From positions 1 to 53,212 of IMG/VR virus record IMGVR_UViG_3300023119_000036: DNA of 53,212 bases. One strand, 5' to 3'. Below the pieces are notes generated by a model. It searched no databases. It saw only the letters and a list, made by a program, of their open reading frames with translations, and was not told the origin of the DNA. The position numbers were made by a program, and so were the translations under genes. Shown in pieces: positions 1 through 39,378 of the stretch. This DNA comes from a virus. Numbering within the stretch: position 1 is the stretch's first letter; each line of letters opens with the position of its first letter.

Positions 1-1279
1 GTTCAAATCTAGCAATTTGGTGTGGCTTGAATCCTGTCCATCGTGTTTCTCGTTGTCCATCAGGATGAGCTTTCATAAACTCTAATGCAGATTCTGCATA
101 ATGCCAATGTTCTTGTGGTGCAAGTTTTAGACTTTGCCAAGCAGGATGATGTAGTGCAGGTGTATCAACAAACACACGATGACTGCCGTAGTACGTTAAT
201 TTACCTGTAGCATCGTCTCTGCGTACTTTACGCACGTTGTGTGCCTTTTGCAGCGCATATACGCCCTCTAGCAAGCGTTTAATGCTAGGCAAGCTCAACA
301 TATTAAATGTAACAATAAACGTTACTAGCCCGTTGTGTGTCTTTGCTAGATAGTTGTTTACGTTGTTCCATAAACGATCAAAGTCTAGACCATCACGCAT
401 ATATTCTGCTTGCTTTCCCCACCCGTCTACACTTACAAATAGTCTAAACGAATTTAATTTATTATATTCTGTAATAAAACTTACAGTGTCTACAAAACGA
501 TTCCAGTTTTTTTCAGGCACACTAGCGTTACTAGTAATACTCATATCTAGATCAGGACGTCCGTTGTCTACAACATAATCTAACACACGAAATGTATTCT
601 TGTCAAGTAGCGGTTCACCGCCTGTCATACGGAAATGTTTTAGTTTAGGATATAAGTCAGGCCACCATTTCCAAAATGCTTCTACATATGGATTGTGTTC
701 CCTAACAGGTATTGGATATTGTCCTGTTTGTTTAAAATACTCTATACTGTTGTGTGGTACTAGCGTAGGATAAGGACCGTTTGCTTCAATATCCTCTGCC
801 CACTTAGAACTTAGATGTGGAGAACAGTATGAACACGCTAGATTACAAGCATGATTAAAGTTTACTTCTAGATAACGTGGTTCAATATCACCTTCTGCAC
901 CTTTAGCAATTACATCATCCCAGCCTTCTTGTGCCCAGGGTTCTGATGAACGATAAAATCTATCACTAAGATGATCTCCCTGCATTGCTTCTACACGCCA
1001 ACAGGTTGAACAACCTTCTGGTTTTTCTCCGCATAGCATTGCAGCACGTTCTTTTTTCTTTTGTGCTGTATTATGTAATGCTTTAGGATTTACTTCTACT
1101 TCTGCTGCATCTATTTTATGCAAAGGTGGTAGAAAACAACTGTTGGTTAGTCCAGTTGTTAAATGAATACTTGACCACAGCCACTTGGCCATACACATGC
1201 TAGGTGATATTTCCTCTAACAAAGGAATCACTTCTAGTGCCGCTGCTTGTGGATCTGTTTCTGTTAGTCTTTTAGCCAA
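1..1279 (-). CDS. Twitch-type radical SAM protein, C-terminus cut by window edge
   Basis: About 426 codons are visible and the frame runs off the window at base 1. The radical SAM cluster motif CNLACSYC (CxxxCxxC) is read near bases 830-860, and MTGGEPLL, the usual SAM-binding GGE region, near 605-635. An N-terminal cysteine set (MCMAKW, NSC, EGCSTCW) precedes the motif, as in phage radical SAM proteins with an N-terminal twitch domain that can hold a second Fe-S cluster. It is a clear paralogue of the gene at 3153-4556 (467 residues), so roughly 40 residues are probably missing. The start is inferred: an in-frame stop lies just upstream and no ATG precedes the first cysteines, so TTG at 1279-1277 is chosen. 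An AGGGGA Shine-Dalgarno sequence lies six bases before it. It overlaps the SGNH-like gene by 16 bases. The substrate is unknown. Family call is strong; function is open. Confidence 0.85.
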   Translation of the reverse strand, partial: MAKRLTETDPQAAALEVIPLLEEISPSMCMAKWLWSSIHLTTGLTNSCFLPPLHKIDAAEVEVNPKALHNTAQKKKERAAMLCGEKPEGCSTCWRVEAMQGDHLSDRFYRSSEPWAQEGWDDVIAKGAEGDIEPRYLEVNFNHACNLACSYCSPHLSSKWAEDIEANGPYPTLVPHNSIEYFKQTGQYPIPVREHNPYVEAFWKWWPDLYPKLKHFRMTGGEPLLDKNTFRVLDYVVDNGRPDLDMSITSNASVPEKNWNRFVDTVSFITEYNKLNSFRLFVSVDGWGKQAEYMRDGLDFDRLWNNVNNYLAKTHNGLVTFIVTFNMLSLPSIKRLLEGVYALQKAHNVRKVRRDDATGKLTYYGSHRVFVDTPALHHPAWQSLKLAPQEHWHYAESALEFMKAHPDGQRETRWTGFKPHQIARFE

Positions 1280-1926
1280 GGATATTCCCCTAGTATGTAC
1301 TCAGCAAACCTTTGATGCGTTTTAGGTCCAGGGTGACTATTATCTAGTGCAGTATCTGCATCAGGAAACAGATTCTTTTTGTGGTAATGCACTAAATTTA
1401 TATCATCTGTTTTAAAATCGTATTGCAAATTAAGATTTGTTATAATTTGCTCCATATTAGGTTCTAGTATAGGTGAAAAATTAATAATTTTTTTTATTCC
1501 TATATTTTTTAACTTGTAATTTGCATAGTTTAAAAAAATTCGTGTTTTATCATACATATTTAATTCGTTTTCTAATGCATAATACTTTTTAGCAAGTACA
1601 AGCCCTTTTGATTTACTATAATGCGGCATTATCTTGACTATATCATTTTTTATTGTCCTATACATTGCTCTGTTACAAAAACTCCAATGTATTATTACAG
1701 TATCATTCACTTCAAAATTAAAGCGTTCTATTTGCCATAATATTTGTTGATTGCTAGATCCGGGATCACTTTGGTTAATACATTCTAAATTTGCAACATT
1801 TGCTACAAGTTGTGGCCAAGCAAACTTGCTAGGATACAATCCTGGACCAGAACCGTTGCTGGCTATACAATCTTGCAAACCATGACCATATGTGTAGCTA
1901 CAACCAAAAACAATTAATCTATTCAT
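1264..1926 (-). CDS. SGNH/GDSL-hydrolase-like protein
   Basis: This 220-residue protein has the block pattern of SGNH hydrolases. GCSYTYGHG at residues 8-16 places a candidate nucleophile Ser10. PGSSNQQI at 55-62 resembles the block II glycine region. DNSHPGPKTH at 195-204 supplies the block V Asp195/His198 pair. Families with this fold remove acyl groups from sugars or lipids, and phage versions are usually uncharacterised. No signal peptide is visible, so a cytoplasmic or virion role is inferred. It overlaps the upstream gene by eight bases (ATGAATAG) and the downstream radical SAM gene by 16. Placement among glycosyltransferase-like genes suggests trimming or deacylation of a glycan, but that is inference. 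Confidence 0.65.
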   Translation of the reverse strand: MNRLIVFGCSYTYGHGLQDCIASNGSGPGLYPSKFAWPQLVANVANLECINQSDPGSSNQQILWQIERFNFEVNDTVIIHWSFCNRAMYRTIKNDIVKIMPHYSKSKGLVLAKKYYALENELNMYDKTRIFLNYANYKLKNIGIKKIINFSPILEPNMEQIITNLNLQYDFKTDDINLVHYHKKNLFPDADTALDNSHPGPKTHQRFAEYILGEYPWLKD

Positions 1927-3160
1927 TTAAAGCCTCTAACAAATTTTCACGTAAATTAATATGTATCGTCTGTTGTCTATATAACCAATGAAAAAAGTTA
2001 TGAATTATAATATCATTACATTCTTTATACATTTCAATCCATTGTTCATCGGATAAGTTTATTAATCTATCTATTTCTTTAGATACAGCTACTAATCGTT
2101 CTTCATGACTACTTATGTCATCATACCGTTCATCAATGATAGGATGAAATGTTTTATAACCTAAACTTTGCAAGCCTTTAAGATCATGTTGTGCTCCGAC
2201 TAATATAAACATTTGCTGGAAATAAATTGGCTTAAATATTTTTTCACTAAAAAAAGTTTGGCCATTCTCTTGAAAAGTTTCTGTAACAATATGCAAATAG
2301 CTGTTATGAAATTTATCCCAGTTGTTATCTACAGTAGGATTATCATCTGCTGCATTTATATTTTCTTCGTATACAAATGGCAGACTTTTTATAAATTTAT
2401 CTGAAATCAAAGGTTTTAAATTAGTATATTTTTCTTCAATACGTGTCATTGAATTATCAAAAACAAATAAACTGCCGTTATCAACCTCTTTACCGCAAGT
2501 TAATATACCCTTGTCTCTATAATTTTCTAATAATGCTGTTAACAATAATCTATGTGGGTGCGGACGTCTGTTTAAACATATAAACTTATTAGGTCTTTTT
2601 TGTAATTGACTGTTTCTTCCTTGTATAATTAACTCTTGCGCATTTTCAAAGTACATGTGAAACTCCCACCAATTATGATAAACGTTAATTGTGCCAAAGC
2701 CTGTATCATCTCTATTACCAGTCAACAAAACAAAGTTTTTTGCTGTGAGATTATACATATCACATATGATACGTATTAGAGTTGTTGCAAAATTATCATG
2801 ATTCCACCCTTCCATTGTATTATAAATTAATATTTTGCATCTACCTGCTCTAATGTTTTTTAGATGTCCAGGTTCTATCTCAGTCATTTGTTTTATTAGT
2901 TCCGGATCTTGGCCGAACATCGGGATAGGATAGAAGTACCTTTGTTTTTTTGTTTTTGTGATAATCTGGAAGGTATAAACTGCTTTATCTTTAACTAATC
3001 CTAAATGTATCCACGGATCGCCGTGTATTTGAATTTGAAATTTAGGATCCCGTAAACACTTTTTCTTTACGCCACAAACAAATCCTGCTCTAGGTACTCC
3101 ATCTAACGAAATACCTAAATCATTTACATCTTGTCTACACCAAATAGGAACTTTAATCAT
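1919..3160 (-). CDS. Unknown protein, possibly glycosyltransferase-related
   Basis: This is a 413-residue protein with no confidently recognised domain. The C-terminal third carries FFSEKIFKPIYFQQMFILVG followed by a GYKTF...IIDERYD stretch. This pattern recurs in phage proteins next to sugar-modifying genes and loosely recalls the TEK motif of fucosyltransferase-like (GT10) enzymes. An N-terminal zone (residues 1-180) is rich in aromatic residues and lacks a DxD motif near a predicted strand. The ATG start is preceded by AAAGGATTAG, a good Shine-Dalgarno, and overlaps the upstream radical SAM gene by eight bases. No signal peptide or membrane segment is visible. The glycosyltransferase link is weak and based on one motif plus neighbours. 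Confidence 0.4.
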   Translation of the reverse strand: MIKVPIWCRQDVNDLGISLDGVPRAGFVCGVKKKCLRDPKFQIQIHGDPWIHLGLVKDKAVYTFQIITKTKKQRYFYPIPMFGQDPELIKQMTEIEPGHLKNIRAGRCKILIYNTMEGWNHDNFATTLIRIICDMYNLTAKNFVLLTGNRDDTGFGTINVYHNWWEFHMYFENAQELIIQGRNSQLQKRPNKFICLNRRPHPHRLLLTALLENYRDKGILTCGKEVDNGSLFVFDNSMTRIEEKYTNLKPLISDKFIKSLPFVYEENINAADDNPTVDNNWDKFHNSYLHIVTETFQENGQTFFSEKIFKPIYFQQMFILVGAQHDLKGLQSLGYKTFHPIIDERYDDISSHEERLVAVSKEIDRLINLSDEQWIEMYKECNDIIIHNFFHWLYRQQTIHINLRENLLEALNE

Positions 3161-4556
3161 TAACTAATCCTTTACATTTGTAGTAAAATTCTACTAATTC
3201 AGGAAAAGTTTCTAAGAAATTTTTGTCTCTTCTCAAATCATACTGTTCAAAATATTTGTAAAACTGTTTCATTTCTCTTGATTTATCTTTAGTTAAATTT
3301 GATTGAACAAAGTCTACGGCACGTTTCATTTTATCTACTTCTGTATCTTGAAAACCGTGATGCCCTACTAGTTGTTCTTTATTTGCTTGCATAAACGCTA
3401 AATCTTCTTGCATTATACGCAGTTCTTTTTCTCCTGCTAGTGCCACAGTTTGCCAATCAGGGTATGTTAAATAACTTATATCTAGCCACAACTTTTTCCA
3501 AGTGTTAGATCCGTTTTGTGTTCTCCATTCTAATAACCACTCAAGTAATTTTCTAAAATTAGGAATGCTTAATAAATTATAAGTTGCCATAATAATTGTT
3601 TTGGCTTTCCAATCTAACATAGGTATTTGTGTTGTTACCCTATTGAGATTTCTTATAAATGTATCAAATTCCATACCGTCACGTATATATTCAGCTTGTT
3701 CACCAAAACTCTCTACACTTGTATACAGATCAAAATCTTTTATTTTATTGTTTTGTATGAGATCATTTGCAATTTCAATAAGTCTATCTATGAATACATC
3801 TTGAACACCAAGATTAGTGTTTATTCCTAGCACAAGATTAGGGTTAGGGTTTTGTTGTATGTATTCTAATATGCGCCAAGTATGTTTGCTTAGTAAAGGT
3901 TCTCCGCCTGTGATACGAAATACTTTTAGGTTAGTATATAGTTCAGGCCATATTTTCCAAAATGCATCAATATACGGATTTTCTTCTCTTGCAAGTATTG
4001 GTATTAGATTTTTTTGTTTCATGTAATCTAAGTTGTGTACTTCATAGTCTCCAATATCGTAGCCTCCGCTTTGTTTTATATCTTCCATCCATTTGCTAGA
4101 TATTTGGGGACTACAATACATGCATGCAAAGTTACAGGTATTATTGAAACTGACTTCCACATAAGTAGGCAAAAACTTTTCATCTAAAGGATTTAATTTT
4201 ATTTTTTCTAATTGTCCTTCATTCCAATCTTCACCACTTTTATAGTGTCTATCACTTAGGTGTCCTTGATTTAAATTTTCAATATTCCAACAGTAATTAC
4301 ATTCTTCAGGTTGTTCGCCTGCCAACATTTTTTTACGTTGTTGTATTTTATGCATAGAATTATGCAATGCATGCGGATTTTTCTCTAGCTCATTTAGGGG
4401 AACAAAATGCGGAGCAGGGTGGTGACAACTGTGCGTATGGCCGTTATGTAAGTGCATAGTAACCTGTGTCCACTTAGCAAGACACATTGAACAACTTACA
4501 GAATTTAATTTTTCTCTTGCAATTTCTGCATTAGAGTTATATGAACTTTTTGACAA
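3153..4556 (-). CDS. Twitch-type radical SAM protein
   Basis: This is a complete 467-residue radical SAM protein. The cluster-binding motif CNFACMYC gives Cys141, Cys145 and Cys148, and ITGGEPLL follows about 75 residues later as the SAM-binding GGE region. Extra cysteines come first: Cys22, Cys25 and Cys44, then the ECNYCW pair Cys86/Cys89. This matches the N-terminal twitch arrangement, which may bind an auxiliary Fe-S cluster. Translation is read from TTG at 4556-4554, because GAGGAGT lies five or six bases upstream and no ATG occurs before the first cysteines. The paralogue is at 1-1279, two genes downstream. No short precursor-peptide gene is seen nearby. Radical SAM enzymes of this kind often modify peptides or sugars; which applies here cannot be told. 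Confidence 0.88.
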   Translation of the reverse strand: MSKSSYNSNAEIAREKLNSVSCSMCLAKWTQVTMHLHNGHTHSCHHPAPHFVPLNELEKNPHALHNSMHKIQQRKKMLAGEQPEECNYCWNIENLNQGHLSDRHYKSGEDWNEGQLEKIKLNPLDEKFLPTYVEVSFNNTCNFACMYCSPQISSKWMEDIKQSGGYDIGDYEVHNLDYMKQKNLIPILAREENPYIDAFWKIWPELYTNLKVFRITGGEPLLSKHTWRILEYIQQNPNPNLVLGINTNLGVQDVFIDRLIEIANDLIQNNKIKDFDLYTSVESFGEQAEYIRDGMEFDTFIRNLNRVTTQIPMLDWKAKTIIMATYNLLSIPNFRKLLEWLLEWRTQNGSNTWKKLWLDISYLTYPDWQTVALAGEKELRIMQEDLAFMQANKEQLVGHHGFQDTEVDKMKRAVDFVQSNLTKDKSREMKQFYKYFEQYDLRRDKNFLETFPELVEFYYKCKGLVND

Positions 4557-4566
4557 AGTTACTCCT

Positions 4567-5484
4567 CTACTCTATATCAATTATTTGATCTATCCTATTT
4601 GGATTAGTATATACCGTTTTAAAAAATTTACTTTGTTGACTATTTAGAGGTTCCTCTGCGATAGGTACCTCAAGTTTACTAATCAACACTTTTCCTAAAT
4701 CAGTTATTTTTTCGTGTAATTCTTCTTCAGTGATTTGTGCTACTTCGTTATTGTAAAAATCGTTGAGATATTCAAAATCACGTACATTGATGTAGTCCCA
4801 ATCTGTGCACATAGTTTTATACAATCCATCTCTTGCACCGTACACTGCCCATAAACCATTGTCTACATCAGCACCTACCATTAACCAAACATAAAGCCTA
4901 TGTAAATTTTTCCAATGATTTTTATGAAATTCATCTATAGTGACCTTTACTCCGCGATCAAGTGCCATTTTCACACCTTCACGGAATCCTGCTCTCCATG
5001 CTTGTTGAGGAGTAGCATTATTATACACATCCGAAAAACAGCTATTCTGTTGTATGTATTGCACATCCCAACAAAAGTCAACCTGTGCATGAGCATTGTT
5101 TGGATCTGCATTTTCATGGGTGCGCATACGTAATACAAAATCTTTAGGCCAACATTTTATGCCGCCATTTCCATACATAAGTCCGTTTACAATATTTCTT
5201 CCTGCCCAACTTATTACACAGTTTGACAAATCGGTATGTTCTTCAAAATCAATTTCTTGGTTAAGAAAGTTTTCATCTATTATATTGTCGCCATCAATTG
5301 TTATAAAACGATCAGTTTCGCTAAGTCTAGCACACGCTTTATGTGCTTCATCTGATCCTTTTACGCCATGCACACGTTTTGCCCAAGGCACTTTGCTACA
5401 TAAGTCTGCGTAATTTTTTTCCGCATTAGGCTCGTCATAGCTAAGATAAATGATATCGTAATCAATGGGCTTAAATTTACTCAT
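4567..5484 (-). CDS. Glycosyltransferase-like protein, GT-A type
   Basis: A 305-residue protein whose first 110 residues look like a GT-A nucleotide-sugar fold. It opens with DIIYLSYDEPNAEKNY, then FITIDGDNIIDENF at about 60-73, where Asp64-Gly-Asp66 would be the metal-binding DxD. YGNGGIKCWPKD at about 124-135 resembles an acceptor-side loop of family-2-like enzymes. The remaining part (residues 140-305) is helical and unassigned. The start follows GAGGTAA about nine bases upstream, and the gene begins immediately after the stop of the 446-residue protein with no spacer. No membrane segment is visible, so a soluble enzyme is inferred. Donor and acceptor are unknown. Confidence 0.6.
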   Translation of the reverse strand: MSKFKPIDYDIIYLSYDEPNAEKNYADLCSKVPWAKRVHGVKGSDEAHKACARLSETDRFITIDGDNIIDENFLNQEIDFEEHTDLSNCVISWAGRNIVNGLMYGNGGIKCWPKDFVLRMRTHENADPNNAHAQVDFCWDVQYIQQNSCFSDVYNNATPQQAWRAGFREGVKMALDRGVKVTIDEFHKNHWKNLHRLYVWLMVGADVDNGLWAVYGARDGLYKTMCTDWDYINVRDFEYLNDFYNNEVAQITEEELHEKITDLGKVLISKLEVPIAEEPLNSQQSKFFKTVYTNPNRIDQIIDIE

Positions 5485-6825
5485 CTAATTTATTACCTCA
5501 TGTCCATAATTTTCAAAATACTTTGTAGTATATAAACTTGTTTCTATTTTAGTAAAATCAGTACCGTCCTCAAATTTAACATTTACATATTCATTGCTTA
5601 TTAAATCTTGTACAGGAATTGATAAAGATTTATATAATATGTTTGGATCATACTTTTCAGTAACGCTAAAATAAACTACGTCATCTGTTGAAAACCCTGC
5701 TGTTTTCAAAAACTTTTTAGTAATTGGATTCAAACTAAACTCCCATTGCTTTAGTTTATTATTTTGTTTAATTACTAAATCAAACTCTCTATCTACATGA
5801 AACAGATACAGTTCTTTACCGATTAAAATTTTAGATCCATTACGCAAATCTTCAAGTGCATCAATATGCAAGAAATTTTTATCTACAGAATATATATCAC
5901 TTGTTGCAAGGTTGATAACACTAATTTCGCCATCTTTAACTTCTATTAAATTGTTTCCAGAATAAAAAAATGTTTCTCCAAATTCTCTTTCATGATAAAT
6001 TTCATGCAGATCTCTCATGTAAAGTTTATTATGATCTAAAAACTTGTCGCCTATACCATTAACTTCATCAAATTTTAAAAGTTTATTTTCATCGTTGTAT
6101 AATAACACATTTTCTACAACTACTTCACAGTTAGATTTTTTAAATTTTGTATTCTTTTTTTGGTCTGCTTTAAGTTTATATACTACATCCTTATAAAAAA
6201 TATGTTGTCCTGCAACATGATCTAATTCTTCGTACCAAACATCTACATGAATGCCATCATATATAGGTGTGGTTACTTCTAATGCAACTGTGTGATCTAT
6301 AGTAGAAGCATTAGTAAGTTTAACATCTTCTACAAACAAAAGAGAATTTTTTATATCAAATTCTTCATCTGCTTTATTATCGCACGACAATTTATAAACA
6401 TTATTATTATAAAAAACAAGTTGTCCTGCTTTATAACTGTCTTGTTTTATCCAGATGTCGACACTTATACCTTCATAGATTTTATCAAAATTACTGTGTC
6501 CGTCTCTTGAAGTGCTTACCCGTGTAAATTCGTGCATAAACAAATTAGCTGAATTATAATGATCTTCATAATTGACTTGTTTTACTACAACCTGTTTTGC
6601 TGCAAAATCGTATATAACTGTATAGTCAGCTGCACTTTTTGTTCCTTCAAGTATAGGAGCAACAACATCCGACGGAACAGCGATAACTTCGTAAGATGTT
6701 TCTAGTGGACGCTTGCTAGTAATTTTGTAGATTTTTCCATCAGCTTTATCATAAGATACATAGCTTTCATTTTGTTCGGCTTGTTGTATCTTGATACTAT
6801 TAATTAAATCTTTTAAGTTAGACAT
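5485..6825 (-). CDS. Repeat-bearing adhesin-like or virion protein, unknown
   Basis: A 446-residue protein not assigned to a family. It contains two similar modules at about 117-172 and 188-243. Each starts IYEGISVDIW or IYDGIHVDVW and continues with an aGQ.vFY...VYKL core. That core (aromatic, spacing, GQ/GD, V-x-Y, Y) resembles small chitin-binding type 5/12 or similar carbohydrate-binding modules, also seen in the giant protein of this window. The first 100 residues and the C-terminal 200 are beta-rich by appearance. It sits between glycosyltransferase-like genes, overlaps the upstream one by eight bases and abuts the downstream one. It could be a glycan-binding adhesin or the protein that the neighbouring enzymes modify. 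Both are inference. Confidence 0.45.
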   Translation of the reverse strand: MSNLKDLINSIKIQQAEQNESYVSYDKADGKIYKITSKRPLETSYEVIAVPSDVVAPILEGTKSAADYTVIYDFAAKQVVVKQVNYEDHYNSANLFMHEFTRVSTSRDGHSNFDKIYEGISVDIWIKQDSYKAGQLVFYNNNVYKLSCDNKADEEFDIKNSLLFVEDVKLTNASTIDHTVALEVTTPIYDGIHVDVWYEELDHVAGQHIFYKDVVYKLKADQKKNTKFKKSNCEVVVENVLLYNDENKLLKFDEVNGIGDKFLDHNKLYMRDLHEIYHEREFGETFFYSGNNLIEVKDGEISVINLATSDIYSVDKNFLHIDALEDLRNGSKILIGKELYLFHVDREFDLVIKQNNKLKQWEFSLNPITKKFLKTAGFSTDDVVYFSVTEKYDPNILYKSLSIPVQDLISNEYVNVKFEDGTDFTKIETSLYTTKYFENYGHEVIN

Positions 6826-7660
6826 TTAATAACACCTTATATCTTTCTAACACAGGTGTTTTATTTACAAAATCATTTTCTGTATAATGTAAAATACCTG
6901 ATTGCGAATAATTGCCAATTTTTATCTCGCACTTTGTATTAATATAACATCCTACTTTATCTAACCAACTTTTTGTAACATCTTCCCATCCTTGACAGTA
7001 AGATTTCATATGTGTAAATGTAGGATTTTTTACAAATGGATTAGTTATATTGTCTACACAATCTAAATTTATAGCAGCTATTGCTGCGCATACGTCCATA
7101 CTAGGAAAACTAGGAGTAGATTTTGGCACAACAGTTTCGTAAAATTTACCATAGTCTTTGACAACAGTTTCTAGTTCTTTATAAAAATTCATAGCAATGT
7201 CATTTTTCTTAAAATAATGAAATCCTGAAAATAGATTAGGTAAATTATTTTCTATGAATGCTTTTCTGTAGTATGTTGTGTCAGCAACATTTCCTCTATA
7301 GTCATAGACTTTACTTGTATAATATACATCGTAATTGCTAAGAAAATCCCACCAACTGTCTATATTTTCTAGTACTAACATATCGGTATCTAGTACAACA
7401 GTTTCCTCATAAGGCGAGGCGTGAAAAAGTTTCCATCTATTTTCTATTTTCCATTCTTTGTCAACTGCATCATCGCCAAAAGGAATAGGAATTATTTTAT
7501 CAAACAAAGATACATAATTATTAGGAACATCGTCGTTAGTTACTAAACTAATAGGCAAATTATTAGTAGCTTTTAAACTCATAGCTAACAAGCATGCTTG
7601 GCCTATATAATCGCCCGAGTCAGAATCTTGTGCTAAAACTAAAAATCCTCTATTGCTCAA
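6818..7660 (-). CDS. GT8-like glycosyltransferase
   Basis: A 280-residue protein with the layout of GT8-like (glycogenin/LgtC-type) enzymes. It opens with GFLVLAQDSDSGDYIGQACL, where such enzymes bind the nucleotide. EETVVLDTDMLVLENI at about 85-100 provides the Asp91-x-Asp93 metal motif in its usual hydrophobic frame. The start is read as TTG at 7660-7658: GGAG lies seven bases upstream, and no nearer ATG fits the alignment to the neighbouring paralogue. It overlaps that paralogue's stop by 11 bases, which points to coupled translation. The pair with 7650-8504 is probably an old duplication. The acceptor is unknown. Confidence 0.65.
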   Translation of the reverse strand: MSNRGFLVLAQDSDSGDYIGQACLLAMSLKATNNLPISLVTNDDVPNNYVSLFDKIIPIPFGDDAVDKEWKIENRWKLFHASPYEETVVLDTDMLVLENIDSWWDFLSNYDVYYTSKVYDYRGNVADTTYYRKAFIENNLPNLFSGFHYFKKNDIAMNFYKELETVVKDYGKFYETVVPKSTPSFPSMDVCAAIAAINLDCVDNITNPFVKNPTFTHMKSYCQGWEDVTKSWLDKVGCYINTKCEIKIGNYSQSGILHYTENDFVNKTPVLERYKVLLNV

Positions 7661-8504
7661 CTGCCATCTCCTGATCTATAATTCTTGAAAGACTAAACTT
7701 ATTCATTACATGCACATTCATGTCTTTTACTGCGATGGCGTGATATTCACCTAGATAATCTTTTTTTGCAACTAAGAATGTCATAGTTTCGTCCTTAGTA
7801 TTCCAAAGTATATCTTGGTCTGTTATATACGTTAATTTACCTGGCATTTGCCCAGCAAAGTTTCCTTTATTAAATCCGTTTAGAATATGTATTGCAATAC
7901 TAAAAGCAAAATCGTTTCTAAAAAGTTGTGATTGTATTTGATACAATCTTCTGTAATGATTCCATTCTTCTTGTATGTGCTTTATTAAATCGAAAAACAT
8001 TTTATTTGTTTCTGTTTTTCTAAAAAACACACACGTTGCCCAATAAAAGTCACACCCACTGTCGCTTATAAATTCAAATTCTTTAGTGTTCCTATTATTA
8101 CTCAAATCATATGAATCTTTATACAATAACAAGTCTTGATCGCTGTCGAAGCAATTCAAAAATAAGTTATTGTTAACTACAAAGTCACTGTCTAGCAATA
8201 ATGTTTCGTCATATGGTGTTAGATCGTATACTGACGACCTTGAAGAATTTTTAAAATTATCTGTTTTAGATGCCAATCCGCCATCATAAAAACTTCTTGT
8301 ATTTGTTTTGGATTCATATCCAACAGAAATAATATGATCAAATACTTCAGGATCAAATGACTTATTTAGATATTCTATATTATCTGTAATTATTGATGTA
8401 GGAAGATCTAAATGTTTTTTAACTTTTTTTGCTAGATAAACAGCTTGTTTTACATAATCTATATTATTGTTGTTTCTAGCAATTACTAATACACCTTTAT
8501 TCAT
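7650..8504 (-). CDS. GT8-like glycosyltransferase paralogue
   Basis: A 284-residue protein, distant paralogue of its downstream neighbour. It opens with NKGVLVIARNNNNIDYVKQA, equivalent to the other's GFLVLAQDSD stretch. YDETLLLDSDFVVNNN carries the DxD motif (DSD, about residues 105-107). The ATG at 8504-8502 is preferred over the in-frame TTG three bases upstream, because it overlaps the previous stop in the same eight-base ATGAATAA style seen elsewhere in this operon. No strong Shine-Dalgarno is visible, so translation probably depends on coupling. Assigning GT8 rests on the DxD frame and on similarity to its neighbour. Confidence 0.6.
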   Translation of the reverse strand: MNKGVLVIARNNNNIDYVKQAVYLAKKVKKHLDLPTSIITDNIEYLNKSFDPEVFDHIISVGYESKTNTRSFYDGGLASKTDNFKNSSRSSVYDLTPYDETLLLDSDFVVNNNLFLNCFDSDQDLLLYKDSYDLSNNRNTKEFEFISDSGCDFYWATCVFFRKTETNKMFFDLIKHIQEEWNHYRRLYQIQSQLFRNDFAFSIAIHILNGFNKGNFAGQMPGKLTYITDQDILWNTKDETMTFLVAKKDYLGEYHAIAVKDMNVHVMNKFSLSRIIDQEMAVEQ

Positions 8505-8850
8505 CAATTTCTACTAATTTTGATACACTTCTTTTTTTCTTTAAATTTACAAATTCATTATAATATTCGTTAGATGCAGTAAAGTATACATCAAGAATAT
8601 TAGCATGGAAATTTTCTAAATCTGTAATTTGTACTGGAGATCCGTTATCGTCAACTAATACAACTTCTGTGTTATCAGTAGAAACAAGAGTATAACAAAA
8701 ATTAATTAACTCCTTTGTCACTGTAAATTGTGCACCAAGATGATAATAAAGTAAGTCTTGATTGTATTTTTCTGCTAATGCACGTTTTTGATTATTAAAA
8801 GTAACCATATAGTTACTAAAGTCAAGTGCTTTTTGAAGACGTTCGTCCAT
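8497..8850 (-). CDS. Small protein of unknown function, first gene of the surface-chemistry operon
   Basis: A 117-residue protein. The first half is helical (MDERLQKALDFSNYMVTFNN), followed by GAQFTVTKELINF and VLVDDNGSPVQI, then a second helical stretch ending in a lysine-rich tail. No family is recognised, though small proteins with this look sit beside tail-fibre genes in marine T4-like phages. AGGAGA lies six bases upstream of the ATG. It is the first gene after the promoter at 8880-8908 and overlaps the following glycosyltransferase gene by eight bases. It is probably cytoplasmic. A regulatory, chaperone or structural role cannot be separated. Confidence 0.6.
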   Translation of the reverse strand: MDERLQKALDFSNYMVTFNNQKRALAEKYNQDLLYYHLGAQFTVTKELINFCYTLVSTDNTEVVLVDDNGSPVQITDLENFHANILDVYFTASNEYYNEFVNLKKKRSVSKLVEIDE

Positions 8851-8879
8851 AGAGATTCTCCTAGTATACTTTAACTTAT

Positions 8880-8908
8880 AGTATATAACAGATTTTTACG
8901 ATTGTCAA
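8880..8908 (-). promoter_or_regulatory. Sigma70-type promoter for the surface-chemistry operon
   Basis: On the minus strand TTGACA (8908-8903) is followed by exactly 17 bases and then TATACT (8885-8880), about 30 bases before the ATG at 8850. This is near consensus for bacterial sigma70. The start of the spacer (TTGACAATCGTAA) resembles the promoter of gp47 (TTGACAACCGTTAA). It implies that the operon is transcribed early by host polymerase instead of with the late structural genes. No clear terminator is visible between it and the upstream gene ending at 8921. Confidence 0.8.
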
Positions 8909-8920
8909 TGAAAGTTTGGC

Positions 8921-10225
8921 TTAAAAATTAGAGACGTTAGAACCTACAGGTGTGTCAGTATAGGAAACTGTTGTGTATGTTTGTCCGTTAAATGATACTT
9001 CGCCGTTTGGCACTCTAAGAAATACTGAATTAGTAACTACACCCTGTACATATTCATCTATTGTTTCGCTATGATTGTCTAATAATTGTAATTTAAATTG
9101 AACCTGTGTTGTCGACGGGATTAGTGCGTCTAATGCAATCACACTATTTGTATAAGCAACACCGCTATTACTTGTGTAAACTCTTTTATATGTACCTGTC
9201 AAGTTGTTATAGCCTTGAGTAACAACTTTTCCTGTGCTATCTACTGTATTTGTAGCACCCATTTGAACACTTCCTACATCATTACACAACTGTTGCCACG
9301 TTAGTGTCTTTGCTTGTCCGCCAGTGTAAGAAATTCTAGGAGAGCATCTAACTTGTCCGCCTGCATTAAAAAATGCATCGCGACTTGCCTGGCTTGGAAA
9401 CGTTACTGTAAAAATATGATTGATGCTAGTATTCCATATTAAACTTCTACTAGTTGTTAACGGACTTGAACTAGAATCTTCTAGTTCTAAAATGTCTGCT
9501 TGTCCAACAGCATCAATACTGAATCTATTTGTATCCAGTGCGGACATTTTAGATTCTAAACCAGCAATGTAAGCTTCTTCAACTAGATCAGTATTTCCTG
9601 CATTAGTATCGTAATCGCCTACAACAAAGGGTTGGGTAGTGATAGCTCCTGCTCCATTCTGATGAGCATCAATTCTTACTATGTCAGCATATAGTGCAAT
9701 GTACTGAGAGTCATCAATTTTTGAAGTATTAGGATTTACAGGACCAGAAAGGAGCGTTTGGCCGTAACCATATCCACTTAATCCTCTATCAGATACCACA
9801 GTTCCTACTCCAGAATATAGAAAACTTTTACTAGAAGTTAATGATCGTTGAGCATCTGTTTGACCGTCTGACTGAACAGTTGTACTAAGACTTGCAGCAT
9901 AAAAGAAGTTATCTATGGTTTTTGATTGGGTGATACCGTTAGTTAAGTCATTTACCCAATATGCTACACCCAATGCCTTTGCTTTTCTAAACAATCCGTA
10001 TCTAGTGCCTAGGCTTGTACTAAAAGTATCATTACTCTCGTATAAATTTACAACAAAGTCTTTGTAGGCAAGTACAGTTGATTTTGCTGCGCCGCCCCAA
10101 TATGTATTTTTGTATTCATCGTACCAATCGTCCCAGTCATAAGTTGGAGCAATGGCGGGTCCGAGAAGTTGTTGTACTTGGGAATATAAATCGTTATATC
10201 TCGATGCAGCTATAGTAACAGGCAA
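8921..10225 (-). CDS. Modular tail fibre/adhesin-like protein with DUF4214-like module
   Basis: A 434-residue protein. Residues 1-27 and 151 onward match the N-terminal region of the adjacent 1358-residue protein: a QQLLGP-type helix, GYGYGQTLLSGPVNPN, then LYADIVRIDAHQNG, then FFNAGGQVR. Between these halves, residues about 28-150 hold a separate module starting YDWDDWYDEY, with YGLFRKAKALGVAYWVNDL. That resembles DUF4214 (LYR..LGR.PDaaGlayWv), found in bacterial surface proteins. The start is TTG at 10225-10223, with TAAGGAG eight bases upstream and no ATG nearby. A late-promoter-like box lies 17 bases upstream. It is probably a virion adhesion protein; the exact location is unknown. Confidence 0.6.
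   Translation of the reverse strand: MPVTIAASRYNDLYSQVQQLLGPAIAPTYDWDDWYDEYKNTYWGGAAKSTVLAYKDFVVNLYESNDTFSTSLGTRYGLFRKAKALGVAYWVNDLTNGITQSKTIDNFFYAASLSTTVQSDGQTDAQRSLTSSKSFLYSGVGTVVSDRGLSGYGYGQTLLSGPVNPNTSKIDDSQYIALYADIVRIDAHQNGAGAITTQPFVVGDYDTNAGNTDLVEEAYIAGLESKMSALDTNRFSIDAVGQADILELEDSSSSPLTTSRSLIWNTSINHIFTVTFPSQASRDAFFNAGGQVRCSPRISYTGGQAKTLTWQQLCNDVGSVQMGATNTVDSTGKVVTQGYNNLTGTYKRVYTSNSGVAYTNSVIALDALIPSTTQVQFKLQLLDNHSETIDEYVQGVVTNSVFLRVPNGEVSFNGQTYTTVSYTDTPVGSNVSNF
9776..10144 (-). repeat. DUF4214-like module, copy 1
   Basis: This stretch encodes about residues 28-150 of the 434-residue protein, from YDWDDWYDEYKNTYW to VVSDRGLS. It aligns with the module at 12558-12950 over its whole length: DWDDWY/TWDDWY at the start, YGLFRKAKALGVAYWV/FGLFRRPDAAGLAYWV in the middle, SDGQTDAQRS/SDGRSDSQRS later, and a V.SDRG/V.GDRG end. 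The DNA is well diverged, so the duplication is not recent. Confidence 0.7.
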
Positions 10226-10242: not shown

Positions 10243-10252
10243 GTATTTATTT
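10243..10252 (-). promoter_or_regulatory. T4-late-like promoter box
   Basis: The minus strand reads AAATAAATAC, followed by TGTAAGGAG, with 17 bases between the box and the TTG start at 10225. It matches the boxes before 20427, 39347 and 48263 (consensus A-T/C-AAATAC). T4 late promoters use TATAAATA read by gp55, which is encoded in this window. Confidence 0.55.
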
Positions 10253-10277: not shown

Positions 10278-13200
10278 TTACGGTATTTCTGCGCCTTCGT
10301 CTGTGCGTATTATAACAGTAACAAATGCTGTTTCTACTATTTCGCCTGCTTGTCCGCCTGTCTTTAGATAGGCCGTATATAGCGCATCTATTTCAGGACT
10401 ACTAGGTGTATAAGCAAACTGTGCAGTACCGTTAGCACCTACAGTAACCACACCAGATGCATCTGCGACATTTGCATTTGAATTTGGACCTACATGCCAG
10501 TATAGCTGTGTTCCTTGCGGTACATTCGTAGTTGTCGCTGTAAAGAATACAGCACCGCTTCCGTAGTTACTGAAAACAGTCGAACTTTGTGGACTTAGTT
10601 CGTAAGTTGGAGCAGGTGTAATAGTCAATGAACTTGAAGCAACAATTGGTCCAGAATAGCTACCTGTTCTTACATTTACACTATAGTCACTTGCAGGAAC
10701 TAGTGTTCCTTGTACTAATGTAATATTGAAGCTGTTAGAATTATTATTTATAGTAGGATTGCTGACAGATCTTGATGCTCCGTTGCTGGCTTTGTCTATA
10801 GTAACATAAACTTCTGTACCGTCTGAAACATCTGTAGTTGATAAGGTAAACACTCCTATACTTTCTCCATCAACCTTAGTCATTGAGCTAGGAAGCAAAC
10901 TATATGTTGGCACTACAGGATCTACTCTGAGCAAGCCTGTTGCAACAACTACGCCATCATAAACAGTGTTAAATACGTCTAAACTATAAATGCCTGTGCT
11001 GATTCCTGTAGTATCAAACGATATACTTGCCTCGTTGTTGAAAACTGTGTCTTCTAGAGTATAAATTTCAGACGCATTAAGTGAATTAACAAATTTAAAG
11101 TATATTGTAGTACCATTTGACACATTTGTGGTTGTAAGGGTAAATGTTACTGACTGTCCACTCGTTGTACTAGGTGTCAAAGGTGAAAGTGTATAACTTG
11201 CTTCGGCTTCTGTAATTACTAGTGTTGCTGTTGCAAGAATTGTATCGTCTTCCGCCTGTGGTTCAATGGCAACAGTATATGTGCCTGGGTCTAAAGTTCC
11301 TGCCTCGATACGGAAAGAAGCAGTTCCATTACTTATACCACCAGTAGCTAGTGTTGCTATAGGGCTTCCTTGACCTACTAGTGTTGTAAGATAAAATTGG
11401 CTTCCATCTTCCACATTTTGTGTGGTTAAAACAAATTCTGCAACTTCGCCGTCAACTATTGAAAGAGAGGACGGTGTTAATTCGTATTCTGGTTCTAGCA
11501 CTGCATTAACAGTAATAGTGTCTGTGCCAATAATTGTGCCGCCTTGTCCACTGGCTGTCATAGTTATTACATGCGAGCCTGCTGTAGTGAATGTTAAATT
11601 AGGTGTGTAGTATCCTACACCACTACTTAAACCTGTGGTTCCAGACTGGTTTGAGAATGACGGACCTGATGCACTCCAAACAATTGTGTCAACATCGCCT
11701 CCTGCTTGCGCAAAACCTCTGCCTGTAGTGCCTACTGTTGTAGACTGTAGTAATCCACTCCATTCAGGCTCAACCATCCAGTAAGCAGCTTGGGGCTGAT
11801 ATGTACTTTGGGCTGTAACCGTGATAGTTCTCGTTATTTCTCCATCGTCATTTCCAGCAAAAAGTGTCCATGTTTTACTACCTTCCGAGGTAAATGCGTA
11901 TGCACCTATTGAATCTTCTTCTGTTATGTCTGTTATGTCTGGATATCTATTCCAAACGCTATCGTTCGAATCTCTAGTTAATTCAATATATGTTGCATTT
12001 GATACCCTGAATGCAAAGAAAACAGGGTTGTTGAGTCCAACAGGGCTTGTCGGATCACTGTAAAAGTAATCAATTATCGGTGCAGGAGCTGTAACTTCTA
12101 ATGTTGTACTTGCTGTTCTAGATTCTCCTGCACTATTAGTTGCAGTAATTGTAGCAATTAAGTTTCCAGAGTCTGACGGAAGATTAAATGTGTCAGTGCT
12201 TCCGCTTGCACTTGTAGAAGTAACTGTAGTAGTAGTGCCCAATCCTGAAATACTTATTGTAACACTTGTACTATTTTCTACTGTCCAGTTGACGTTTACA
12301 GGATCGCCGTAATTAGCACTCTGTCGATTCCATGCAAATGATCGTATTACTGGATCGGGTATAGGTGCAGGTGGTTCTTCTCCAGGTGTCGGGGTTCTAC
12401 TTGTGTCATTTACAGAGATACTAGCTGTTGCTTGTCCATTATCTAGTGTAATAGTTAAAGTTTCTGGACCTTCTGTAGTATAATCAGGCACTAGATTATA
12501 ATTTACCACTGCTGTATTACTGTAAACAGTAAACGAATCTGTAAGATTTGTTGACACGCCGCCGCCCGGTGTGCCTCTGTCTCCTACCACGCCTGCGGCG
12601 GTTCCACGTAAAAATGGTTTGTCAAATATTTGCGATCTTTGTGAATCGGATCTTCCATCTGAATCTATCCAAGGTATAACTGCTGTACTTTGGAGCACTG
12701 AACTAAAGAACACATTAGTAAATGATTCTCCTGTTCCATACTGCTGAAGCGAAACATCTACCCAATATGCTAAACCGGCAGCATCAGGTCTTCTAAACAA
12801 TCCAAATAACTGTCCAAAATCTGTGTTATACGCATCATTACCTTCATAGTAAGGTTTTATAATATCTTTTCGTGCAAGCACAGATGCCTTGTTAAATCCA
12901 GACCAATATACAGTAGAAAATTCATTATACCAGTCATCCCATGTATAAAGTCCACTAGATAAATCTTCTCTTTGTACACCACTAAGTGTAAATGGCACTT
13001 GTGTACCTGGGCTTACATTGGTTGTATTAAGAGTAAAGGAAATTGTACCGCCTTCGTTCACAGAAGCATTGCTTGGTACAATCTGATAGCTAGGTAATTG
13101 CGGTGTTTGACTTGTATCGTTTATTGCAACCCTAACTGTAGATCTTCCATTGTCTAGTGCTAGATCAAAATATTCTACCCCTTCTGTAACACTATCTGAA

Positions 13201-14354
13201 ACTAGTGCAAAAGATGCAACTCCTATTCCATTTCCGTCTGTAGTAAACTGTCCAGTTAAACTACCTGATGCTAGGTCTGCTTGGCTTACACCTGTGATTG
13301 TATATGGAACATTAGATCCTGTAGGCACATTAGATGTACTTAGTGTAACTGTAAACTGTCCTCCTTCGTTGACAGCAGATGTGCTTGCAGTCAATATGTA
13401 AGTAGGTAATGATCCTGACTGAACTCCGCCCAAGGATACATTTGTAAATACACCAGGTACAGGCACAGCAACATCACCTGATGCTCTGTAAATACTAACT
13501 GTATTTGTTAGTGTGCCATCAACATTGTTGTCAATTGCATTATCGCCAACAACGTCATTAAATTCTACTCTAAATGATATTTGTGTTGAACTGATGTTTC
13601 TTGCTTTTATAACAAGTGTGTTACCTGCATAAACTCCGCTATAAGACCCTGAGCCGATTTTAGTGAAAATAGTATTATAAGAACTTGTTAAATCGTAGTT
13701 ACCTGTTGCGCTACCGCCTGATATAGTGCTAGAAGTTGAATCTCTATCAAATATTATTACTCCAACTTCGTTTGTTAATTGGGCCCAATCAAGTCCTTTA
13801 GGCTGTGAAGCATTTACATTTGATGGATCAATGCGAATTTGGCCGCCTGTGTTAAAAAAGTGTCTTCTTGCATCTGGAGAGTTAAATGTAATAATAAACT
13901 CGTGTACAATTAATCCATTCCATACTGTTGTTCTTGAAGAAGAATCGGCTATTGCAGTGCTTGCTTGACTAGGATGGATATTTCCTTTATCAGTTTCAAC
14001 TTGAGACATCAATTCTTCAAAGTCTGCAAGTCCCTTTTTAAAACCATCTGGATCATCTGCAACAATGCCAGCATCACTTACTGTAAATGATGTTTCATCT
14101 GCAACAACATTTAAATTCTCTAAAACTTGTGCAATTGTTTGCACACTAGGATCACTTGGGCCTACTTGGTGTATTCTTGCTTTGATTATATCTGCATATA
14201 AATTGTTTATGTCATCAGCATCAATTATCGAGTTAGGTACTATAGGTACACTTTGTAAAGTTTGGCCGTAGCCATTAATACCCGATCCGTTACCTAATAT
14301 TAATTCAATTCTAGATTGCAGATTGTTAATTCGTGCTGCTGTAATTTCTGCCAT
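10278..14354 (-). CDS. Large modular tail adhesin with Calx-beta-like and Ig-like domains
   Basis: A 1358-residue protein. Domains in order: an N-terminal region (1-65) with GYGQTL and LYADI shared with the 434-residue neighbour; a region with FFNTGGQIR shared likewise; a Calx-beta-like domain (about 318-415) with VNEGG.FTVTLST and VTEGVEYFDLALDNG; a second Calx-beta-like domain (about 418-660) split by a 131-residue DUF4214-like insertion at 469-599; three PKD/Ig-like domains; then four tandem Ig-like repeats (about 975-1350) starting EYELTPSS, SYTLSPLT, TYSLLPSS and TYELSPQS. Such beta-sandwich arrays are typical of phage and bacterial surface adhesion proteins. Good AAGGACC Shine-Dalgarno before ATG. 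Probably a host-range fibre. Confidence 0.65.
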   Translation of the reverse strand: MAEITAARINNLQSRIELILGNGSGINGYGQTLQSVPIVPNSIIDADDINNLYADIIKARIHQVGPSDPSVQTIAQVLENLNVVADETSFTVSDAGIVADDPDGFKKGLADFEELMSQVETDKGNIHPSQASTAIADSSSRTTVWNGLIVHEFIITFNSPDARRHFFNTGGQIRIDPSNVNASQPKGLDWAQLTNEVGVIIFDRDSTSSTISGGSATGNYDLTSSYNTIFTKIGSGSYSGVYAGNTLVIKARNISSTQISFRVEFNDVVGDNAIDNNVDGTLTNTVSIYRASGDVAVPVPGVFTNVSLGGVQSGSLPTYILTASTSAVNEGGQFTVTLSTSNVPTGSNVPYTITGVSQADLASGSLTGQFTTDGNGIGVASFALVSDSVTEGVEYFDLALDNGRSTVRVAINDTSQTPQLPSYQIVPSNASVNEGGTISFTLNTTNVSPGTQVPFTLSGVQREDLSSGLYTWDDWYNEFSTVYWSGFNKASVLARKDIIKPYYEGNDAYNTDFGQLFGLFRRPDAAGLAYWVDVSLQQYGTGESFTNVFFSSVLQSTAVIPWIDSDGRSDSQRSQIFDKPFLRGTAAGVVGDRGTPGGGVSTNLTDSFTVYSNTAVVNYNLVPDYTTEGPETLTITLDNGQATASISVNDTSRTPTPGEEPPAPIPDPVIRSFAWNRQSANYGDPVNVNWTVENSTSVTISISGLGTTTTVTSTSASGSTDTFNLPSDSGNLIATITATNSAGESRTASTTLEVTAPAPIIDYFYSDPTSPVGLNNPVFFAFRVSNATYIELTRDSNDSVWNRYPDITDITEEDSIGAYAFTSEGSKTWTLFAGNDDGEITRTITVTAQSTYQPQAAYWMVEPEWSGLLQSTTVGTTGRGFAQAGGDVDTIVWSASGPSFSNQSGTTGLSSGVGYYTPNLTFTTAGSHVITMTASGQGGTIIGTDTITVNAVLEPEYELTPSSLSIVDGEVAEFVLTTQNVEDGSQFYLTTLVGQGSPIATLATGGISNGTASFRIEAGTLDPGTYTVAIEPQAEDDTILATATLVITEAEASYTLSPLTPSTTSGQSVTFTLTTTNVSNGTTIYFKFVNSLNASEIYTLEDTVFNNEASISFDTTGISTGIYSLDVFNTVYDGVVVATGLLRVDPVVPTYSLLPSSMTKVDGESIGVFTLSTTDVSDGTEVYVTIDKASNGASRSVSNPTINNNSNSFNITLVQGTLVPASDYSVNVRTGSYSGPIVASSSLTITPAPTYELSPQSSTVFSNYGSGAVFFTATTTNVPQGTQLYWHVGPNSNANVADASGVVTVGANGTAQFAYTPSSPEIDALYTAYLKTGGQAGEIVETAFVTVIIRTDEGAEIP
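12558..12950 (-). repeat. DUF4214-like module inserted in a Calx-beta-like domain, copy 2
   Basis: These 393 bases encode residues 469-599 of the 1358-residue protein. Left of it the host domain reads VPFTLSGVQREDLSSG; right of it VSTNLTDSFTV continues to EGPETLTITLDNG. Joining the two flanks restores a normal Calx-beta-like domain when compared with the uninterrupted copy next to it (DLASGSLTGQFTTD). The glycines at the right edge (GGG, 12558-12566) may be a linker. Confidence 0.7.
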
Positions 14355-20447: not shown

Positions 20448-20457
20448 GTATTTATTC
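20448..20457 (-). promoter_or_regulatory. T4-late-like promoter box
   Basis: The minus strand reads GAATAAATAC, then AGTATAGGAAAAC before the ATG at 20427. The box contains the TAA stop of the giant gene (20454-20452), so the promoter is embedded in the coding end of the upstream gene. Confidence 0.55.
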
Positions 20458-39368: not shown

Positions 39369-39378
39369 GTATTTATGT
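39369..39378 (-). promoter_or_regulatory. T4-late-like promoter box
   Basis: The minus strand reads ACATAAATAC, then TCTATAATAAGGAATT before the gp6 ATG. It is the closest of the set to TATAAATA of T4, and sits in the 50-base gap between gp25 and gp6. Confidence 0.6.

Follow-up and report, generated by a model that had tools for sequence, protein, structure and literature searches.

What would a phage gain from setting radical S-adenosylmethionine (SAM) enzymes among glycosyltransferases (GTs), directly behind its tail-fibre genes and under a promoter of their own? The question is raised by one end of IMG/VR virus record IMGVR_UViG_3300023119_000036, a stretch of 53,212 bases with 34% G+C from a large uncultured marine phage, called the window here. 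We propose that the operon at this end specifies a soluble phage unit for glycan assembly and tailoring, which forms part of the adsorption module and whose acceptor is most likely the host envelope, a reading to which we assign a probability of about 0.42. What can be said most safely is that the operon's products make a glycan and tailor it. A sequence-only reading of the window had described the operon before us, and every gene type that it listed is present on the minus strand: two radical SAM enzymes, three GTs with DxD motifs, an SGNH protein and a protein with carbohydrate-binding-module (CBM)-like repeats. The co-occurrence of these genes and the early-type promoter that it reported have held, while the function that it suggested (an unusual sugar, on the host surface or the virion) can still be stated only conditionally.

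The operon comprises tightly packed minus-strand open reading frames (ORFs) that run from 8850 to 2 after the tail-fibre genes. The packing is as first described, but the number is nine rather than eight, including the 117-residue g9. Counted downstream from g9, neighbouring genes overlap by 11, 11 and 8 bases, abut with zero spacing, stand 10 bases apart and then overlap again by 8, 8 and 16 bases, in agreement with the 8-16 base overlaps, ten-base gap and zero spacing read earlier. The operon continues past the contig end, which cuts rSAM1. No membrane segment was found in any operon protein within the window. The features of the operon are the following:

8880..8908, minus strand: sigma70-type (early-type) promoter TTGACA-17-TATACT, nearly fixed in place in 42 of 49 non-redundant relatives
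8497..8850, minus strand: g9, 117 residues, conserved and always first in the operon; no convincing Pfam or PHROG family
7650..8507, minus strand: gtC, GT-A glycosyltransferase, GT8/glycogenin-like, LDSD motif (profile and invariant DxD)
6818..7660, minus strand: gtB, GT-A glycosyltransferase, paralogue of gtC, LDTD motif (profile and invariant DxD)
5485..6825, minus strand: adh, soluble, conserved N- and C-terminal domains flanking two CBM5/12-like repeats (alignment, Foldseek)
4567..5484, minus strand: gtA, GT-A-like glycosyltransferase, IDGD motif (invariant D64/D66, motif and genetic context)
3153..4556, minus strand: rSAM2, N-terminal-twitch radical SAM enzyme (NF033640, expect value (E) 3e-93)
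1919..3160, minus strand: g3, GT-B-fold protein, probable fourth glycosyltransferase (AlphaFold2 model and Foldseek)
1264..1926, minus strand: SGNH/GDSL-like protein, possible O-acyl esterase or transferase (weak PF00657 match, motifs)
2..1279, minus strand: rSAM1, second radical SAM enzyme with an N-terminal twitch, truncated at the contig end (NF033640, E 1e-86)

The same arrangement recurs across many uncultured aquatic phages. We searched viral contigs with four independent baits, namely rSAM2, gtB, gtA and c1, the last being a GT gene of a second architecture. With rSAM2, 80 loci and the window together gave 279 radical SAM ORFs (between one and eight in each locus), and a GT stood directly before the first of them in 73 of 79 loci. 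With gtB, a radical SAM gene lay downstream in nearly all loci that reached far enough. Among the 52 non-redundant gtA loci, 49 showed the order (fibre-)g9-gtC-gtB-adh-gtA, and a radical SAM gene then followed in 40. After pooling to 65 non-redundant loci, the order g9-gtC-gtB-(adh)-gtA was found in 63/63 testable cases, and every core junction was an overlap or at most 15 bases long. The gene after gtA (n = 64) was an N-terminal-twitch radical SAM gene in 53 loci, c35 in 3, the GT-B gene g3 in 7 and a second gtA in 1; since c35 is a radical SAM protein by Pfam, the slot holds a radical SAM gene in 56 of the 64. The variant without rSAM2, in which g3 directly follows gtA, occurs in near relatives (loci L084-L087 and L181-L182). 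The neighbourhood search that the sequence-only reading had suggested, made here in both directions, thus gave no sign of rare co-occurrence or of unrelated partners.

One could nonetheless suppose that the region behind the fibre genes merely gathers unrelated cargo. The cassette downstream of the core does vary between relatives, and hypervariable host-recognition clusters are known (PMC7029224, in its available text). We consider this explanation, already disfavoured, very improbable in view of the invariant core order, the overlapping junctions, the 64/64 loci in which the slot after gtA holds a radical SAM or GT-like gene, and the repeated, independent arrival of radical SAM lineages. The last point comes from a tree of 99 radical SAM proteins, built by a quick method and with some long branches. 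The first radical SAM protein of the second architecture falls almost wholly into one clade, the slot after gtA is filled by several lineages, and well-supported branches force at least four changes. The tree thus indicates that at least four radical SAM lineages have occupied this slot and that, therefore, the same adjacency was reached repeatedly; the coupling of GTs and radical SAM enzymes would have arisen independently, beyond shared inheritance. Bacterial copies, mostly from Bdellovibrionota chromosomes, interleave with the phage copies. Because rSAM1 has 39.7% G+C, compared with 27-36% in the remaining operon, and groups with a Bdellovibrionota copy (L120), it is likely a separate acquisition.

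In the second architecture, c1 encodes a GT7 glycosyltransferase fused to a laminin-G (LamG) domain and is unrelated to the GTs of the window. With c1 as bait, the next gene was a radical SAM gene in 42 of 43 loci, and in 74 of 78 once the loci from the radical SAM bait were added. The GT-radical SAM block comes after fibre genes in both architectures. The fusion itself (L045, 4853-6271, with about 120 relatives) usually forms a tandem pair before the radical SAM gene. The GT block of L022, L043, L259 and others also encodes, between c3 and c1, a conserved protein some 70 residues long (KALEKIAxSLDALTLWFEEIDKEEW); considered as a peptide precursor, it was rejected, as it looks like an ordinary helical protein.

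What might the radical SAM enzymes do? Both exceed the curated cut-off of NCBIfam NF033640 (N_Twi_rSAM; 170 bits) with 291.2 and 313.0 bits, which bears out their earlier description as twitch-type. In rSAM2, C25, C44, C86 and C89 precede a CxxxCxxC motif at 141-148, and 45/45 full-length copies hold all seven cluster cysteines, as an N-terminal C-x18-C-x(37-55)-CxxC and a core CxxxCxxC. In its N-terminal part the radical SAM profile aligns to BtrN over the C-terminal twitch of the latter (4m7t 186-259, E 3.9e-7); a phmmer search with the N-terminal domain alone gave no PDB relative. The auxiliary cluster of BtrN is fully ligated by four cysteines, unlike that of MoaA, and is thought to accept an electron during aminocyclitol oxidation (PMC6231123, PMC9012708). 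From the cysteine pattern, we predict an auxiliary cluster in the N-terminal domain of the phage enzymes that is fully cysteine-ligated and BtrN-like. The reaction would then be an oxidation, most plausibly of a sugar, although the fold by itself cannot settle the substrate, and PMC6231123 warns that sequence networks fail to predict function in BtrN's subfamily.

The core of the radical SAM profile matches SkfB, viperin-like and cytosylglucuronate decarboxylase enzymes. A match to peptide-modifying enzymes such as SkfB, among others, would also suit chemistry like that of ribosomally synthesized and post-translationally modified peptides (RiPPs). Under that reading a peptide or protein, perhaps adh, g9 or a fibre, would first be modified by the radical SAM enzymes and then be glycosylated by the GTs. 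A hidden Markov model (HMM) search placed PqqD near radical SAM genes in 12 bacterial loci, mostly of Bdellovibrionota, and the large number of paralogues per phage (as many as 13 matches in a single record) suggests that each enzyme is specific for a site. We nevertheless regard this explanation as unlikely: the HMM search for PqqD and the RiPP recognition element returned zero matches in phage loci, no precursor peptide was recognised, and sugar genes adjoin the radical SAM genes in phages and bacteria alike.

Among the remaining operon proteins, the DxD motifs (gtA D64/D66, gtB D91/D93 and gtC D106/D108) are all invariant in the alignments, and a joint gtB/gtC profile matches glycogenin (E 6e-5); single gtB and gtC sequences gave no match to GT8 in Pfam, and gtA gave no Pfam match. 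For g3, put forward earlier as a possible fourth GT, the AlphaFold2 model (predicted local distance difference test 81, predicted template modelling (TM) score 0.82) retrieved trehalose-6-phosphate synthase/VldE and GT-B enzymes in Foldseek, with a probability of about 1 and a TM score of about 0.4. A Pfam search over 22 g3 members yielded chance matches only, and a PDB profile search weak, implausible ones. Because the model matches GT-B enzymes, g3 is likely a true fourth glycosyltransferase. The SGNH protein has a weak PF00657 match below the cut-off, with GCS and DxxHP-like motifs in its sequence. In the closest relatives the operon extends further, with additional g3-like paralogues, a hexapeptide acyltransferase, a short DegT-like protein and a UDP-sugar dehydrogenase, and other relative loci add an NAD epimerase and a dTDP-4-dehydrorhamnose epimerase; the genes beyond the window end are nucleotide-sugar genes.

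The adh protein was sampled in 56 distinct versions of 173 to 469 residues, all of which conserve the N- and C-terminal domains; the CBM5/12-like repeats lie between these domains in the longer versions. By Foldseek, parts of adh resemble the receptor-binding tail fibres of Agrobacterium phages 7-7-1 and Milano as well as CBMs of chitin deacetylases, with low TM scores because a single domain aligns. Its previous description as adhesin-like is borne out by these tail-fibre and CBM5/12 resemblances, but not by its sequence features, as adh has neither a membrane segment nor a hydrophobic signal stretch. For g9, gtA and gtB, no homologue was found in 50,697 phage records.

Glycosylation of modified DNA bases, in which GTs and radical SAM enzymes would protect the genome against nucleases, is a common role of phage GTs (PMC12619734, citing others, in its available text), and a thymidylate synthase family member, possibly an ordinary enzyme, is present in 5/9 relatives. 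However, the helper HMUDK was found in 0/9 in a search that had no positive control, the block is located with tail fibres and not with nucleotide genes, and adh, LamG and SGNH partners would have no evident role. Such DNA hypermodification therefore seems far-fetched to us.

When are the enzymes made? The site TTGACA-17-TATACT, which had been noticed from the sequence and is present at 8908-8880 on the minus strand, is an 11/12 match. About four such 11/12 sites are expected per 53 kb, so that a lone site is not special, and it was accepted solely after a conservation check. A sigma70 site matching at least 10/12 positions, nearly always with a 17-base spacer, lies some 50-60 bases upstream of the g9 start codon in 42 of the 49 non-redundant relatives, compared with 5.7% of shuffles, which makes the operon promoter credible. 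The late motif was found before g9 in 0/49 of these relatives. Before fib1/fib2, in turn, the late motif occurs in 32/35 relatives and sigma70 sites are not clearly enriched. Within the window, TTGACA-17-TATAMT sites also precede gp55 (48289) and an SbcD-like gene (49184) on the plus strand, and late-type NATAAATA sites stand before structural genes at 39377, 20456, 15869 and 10251 on the minus strand, the last belonging to fib1. The fibre region adjoining the operon is laid out as follows:

8921..10225, minus strand: fib1, tail-fibre-region protein directly upstream of the operon (late-type promoter at 10251; weak DUF4214)
10244..10251, minus strand: late-type promoter AATAAATA before fib1, of a motif class shared with 32 of 35 relatives before fib1/fib2
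10278..14354, minus strand: fib2, large fibre-region protein with repeats, whose position is kept in relatives

It is strongly indicated by these promoter classes that the operon enzymes are transcribed in an early-type manner, apart from the late fibres, and the early expression claimed before is well supported at the level of sequence; late read-through from the fibre genes into the operon is possible. Both promoter sets are clear enough to serve for timing genes across this phage group.

Beyond the observed gene content, order, coupling and promoter classes, we infer activities, step order and acceptor as follows. Host RNA polymerase would transcribe the operon early, while the neighbouring fibre genes await the late sigma factor. 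The GT-A enzymes gtC, gtB and gtA, with the GT-B enzyme g3, would make a short glycan, and adh probably holds or presents the acceptor through its carbohydrate-binding-like repeats. The radical SAM enzymes would take a hydrogen atom from a sugar of this glycan or from its nucleotide-sugar donor, and one electron would pass to the four-cysteine auxiliary cluster, for a net oxidation like that of 2-deoxy-scyllo-inosamine by BtrN. The SGNH protein and the DegT-like, hexapeptide-acyltransferase and UDP-sugar-dehydrogenase genes beyond the window may then add amino, acyl or acid groups. The likeliest acceptor is a glycan of the host envelope, the one recognised by the fibres encoded next to the operon, and the infected cell would thereby be masked from further adsorption. 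We favour an early target, hence the host envelope, because early-type transcription is kept apart from the fibres; the linkage to the fibre genes may be explained by the need for the glycan to match receptor specificity.

The main rival, close behind, is that the enzymes glycosylate and radically modify the phage's own fibres, or adh, in the cytoplasm before assembly, and that they are made early to be ready for the late fibres. Taken alone this remains a tentative proposal, yet much fits it: the block follows fibre genes in both architectures, adh resembles receptor-binding fibres, gtB and gtC resemble self-glycosylating glycogenins, Bdellovibrionota relatives adjoin PqqD and a stand-alone S74 fibre chaperone, and mycobacteriophage virions are known to be glycosylated (cited in PMC12619734, in its available text). 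It is at odds with the operon's own sigma70 promoter and with the missing late motif in all 49 relatives, even if late read-through is possible, and also with cultured Vibrio phage K566 (L312, 13839-22626). This phage carries the order radical SAM-GT8-radical SAM-radical SAM-GT4-like, facing a radical SAM-GT8 pair, and is a further instance of independent coupling. Its pagP gene lies at most a few kilobases away, and no fibre gene is annotated within 14 kb of the radical SAM-GT8 block. Being cultured, and having radical SAM genes interleaved with GT8 and GT4-like genes, K566 also offers an experimental handle.

Several observations weigh against a host-envelope acceptor and against the reading as a whole. 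The invariable fibre linkage and a fibre-like protein within the GT block suit virion modification at least equally well, and the operon contains no O-unit flippase or membrane anchor. The second architecture showed no early promoter of its own, and since NATAAATA has little enrichment in its intergenic stretches, this motif is uninformative on late timing there. Phages of the KVP40 type encode two N-terminal-twitch radical SAM proteins that score below the NF033640 cut-off and are unaccompanied by GTs, the two genes being convergent in KVP40 itself (L313, 7019-9125); the coupling is therefore strong but not universal. Finally, PqqD, a peptide-binding partner, and a stand-alone Peptidase_S74 (fibre chaperone) often adjoin the closest cellular relatives, in Bdellovibrionota loci L151, L155 and L171 in the order radical SAM-PqqD-S74, and these neighbours point to a protein substrate.

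The Bdellovibrionota chromosomes (L102-L178) hold many N-terminal-twitch radical SAM genes, and the surroundings of the family there include genes for GT4, an ABC-2 exporter, a carbamoyltransferase, DegT and SGNH proteins. On B. bacteriovorus, MAT proteins are displayed that resemble phage fibres and contain S74 domains (PMC10769870). These proteins and the PqqD/S74 neighbours hint at a possible substrate in the form of a glycan attached to a fibre-type adhesin, or of a portion of such an adhesin, which is the best argument for virion modification. Several of the Bdellovibrionota radical SAM genes stand in the radical SAM-PqqD-S74 order beside polysaccharide genes and the gene for a pilin-like protein some 765 residues long.

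As to the phage itself, the window contains T4-like genes for baseplate proteins, the late sigma factor gp55 and SbcCD-like proteins (gp46/47). Its gp6-like baseplate protein is nearest, at about 38% identity, to those of the jumbo T4-like Agrobacterium phage Atu_ph07, Salicola phage SCTP-2 and PA5oct, and one operon relative sits in a 357,559-base record (L010); for these reasons the window is probably a fragment of a jumbo myovirus. A giant ORF of 5116 amino acids (20452-35802) lies between the fibre and baseplate genes and is perhaps a VrlC counterpart. The same phage operon occurs in L102 and L103, binned into a Neomarinimicrobiota metagenome-assembled genome; these are probably phage contigs and a possible host hint. 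An Rfam search gave no match.

More broadly, the operon may represent a widespread "glyco-radical" pathway of aquatic phages, in which a conserved GT core and exchangeable N-terminal-twitch radical SAM enzymes place radical sugar modifications on fibres or host receptors and so diversify adsorption specificity; we regard this generalisation as doubtful but possible. The repeated, independent coupling to GTs beside tail fibres would point to a testable adsorption role for a large radical SAM family and to the kind of substrate that it probably acts on, and the promoter split between early-type enzymes and late fibres makes a clear timing prediction. If the proposal is true, radical chemistry joins the phage-host surface conflict and offers enzymes for altering glycans.

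How does the operon compare with known systems? Phage T5 has an early gene for the receptor-masking lipoprotein Llp beside the late gene for its receptor-binding protein; this early masking beside a late receptor-binding gene is the likeness, while Llp is a protein blocker and glycan chemistry is proposed here. In Gtr serotype conversion, a phage GT alters the host O-antigen and requires the membrane proteins GtrA, a flippase, and GtrB, whereas the window's operon proteins have no membrane segment. It is already known that radical SAM and GT genes occur in phage host-recognition regions (PMC7029224 in its available text, PMC7150976), and for cyanophages the polysaccharide clusters of the phage have been proposed to act in masking (PMC7824862). 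Marine phage genomes commonly contain radical SAM genes, which tend to be catalogued as auxiliary metabolic genes with no role assigned (e.g. PMC7150976). We found no description in the literature of this conserved GT-radical SAM system or its promoter logic. The capsular polysaccharide modification clusters of jumbo cyanophages combine several GT families and sugar-modifying enzymes and are proposed to mask against other phages (PMC7824862), which, unlike what we find here, does not mention radical SAM genes. The host recognition cluster of pelagimyophages has, in its fibre region, GTs, most commonly GT8, as well as radical SAM "cassettes", and a change of the host O-chain has been proposed (PMC7029224); these are likewise T4-like marine phages with GTs and radical SAM genes beside fibres, whereas the window's baseplate protein is nearest to jumbo T4-like phages. 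The available text of that paper does not report a fixed GT-radical SAM order, the radical SAM architecture or an early/late promoter split. Compared with the pelagimyophage island (VrlC to gp14), the window has fibres and GTs downstream of the baseplate genes, and the contig stops before gp14. The model name of NF033640 gives no function, to which our analysis adds the coupling to GTs in genomes. The phage enzymes share with BtrN, the 2-deoxy-scyllo-inosamine dehydrogenase, a four-cysteine twitch of similar sequence, a radical SAM core and the expected oxidation of a sugar-like alcohol; they differ in that the twitch is C-terminal in BtrN and N-terminal in the phage enzymes.

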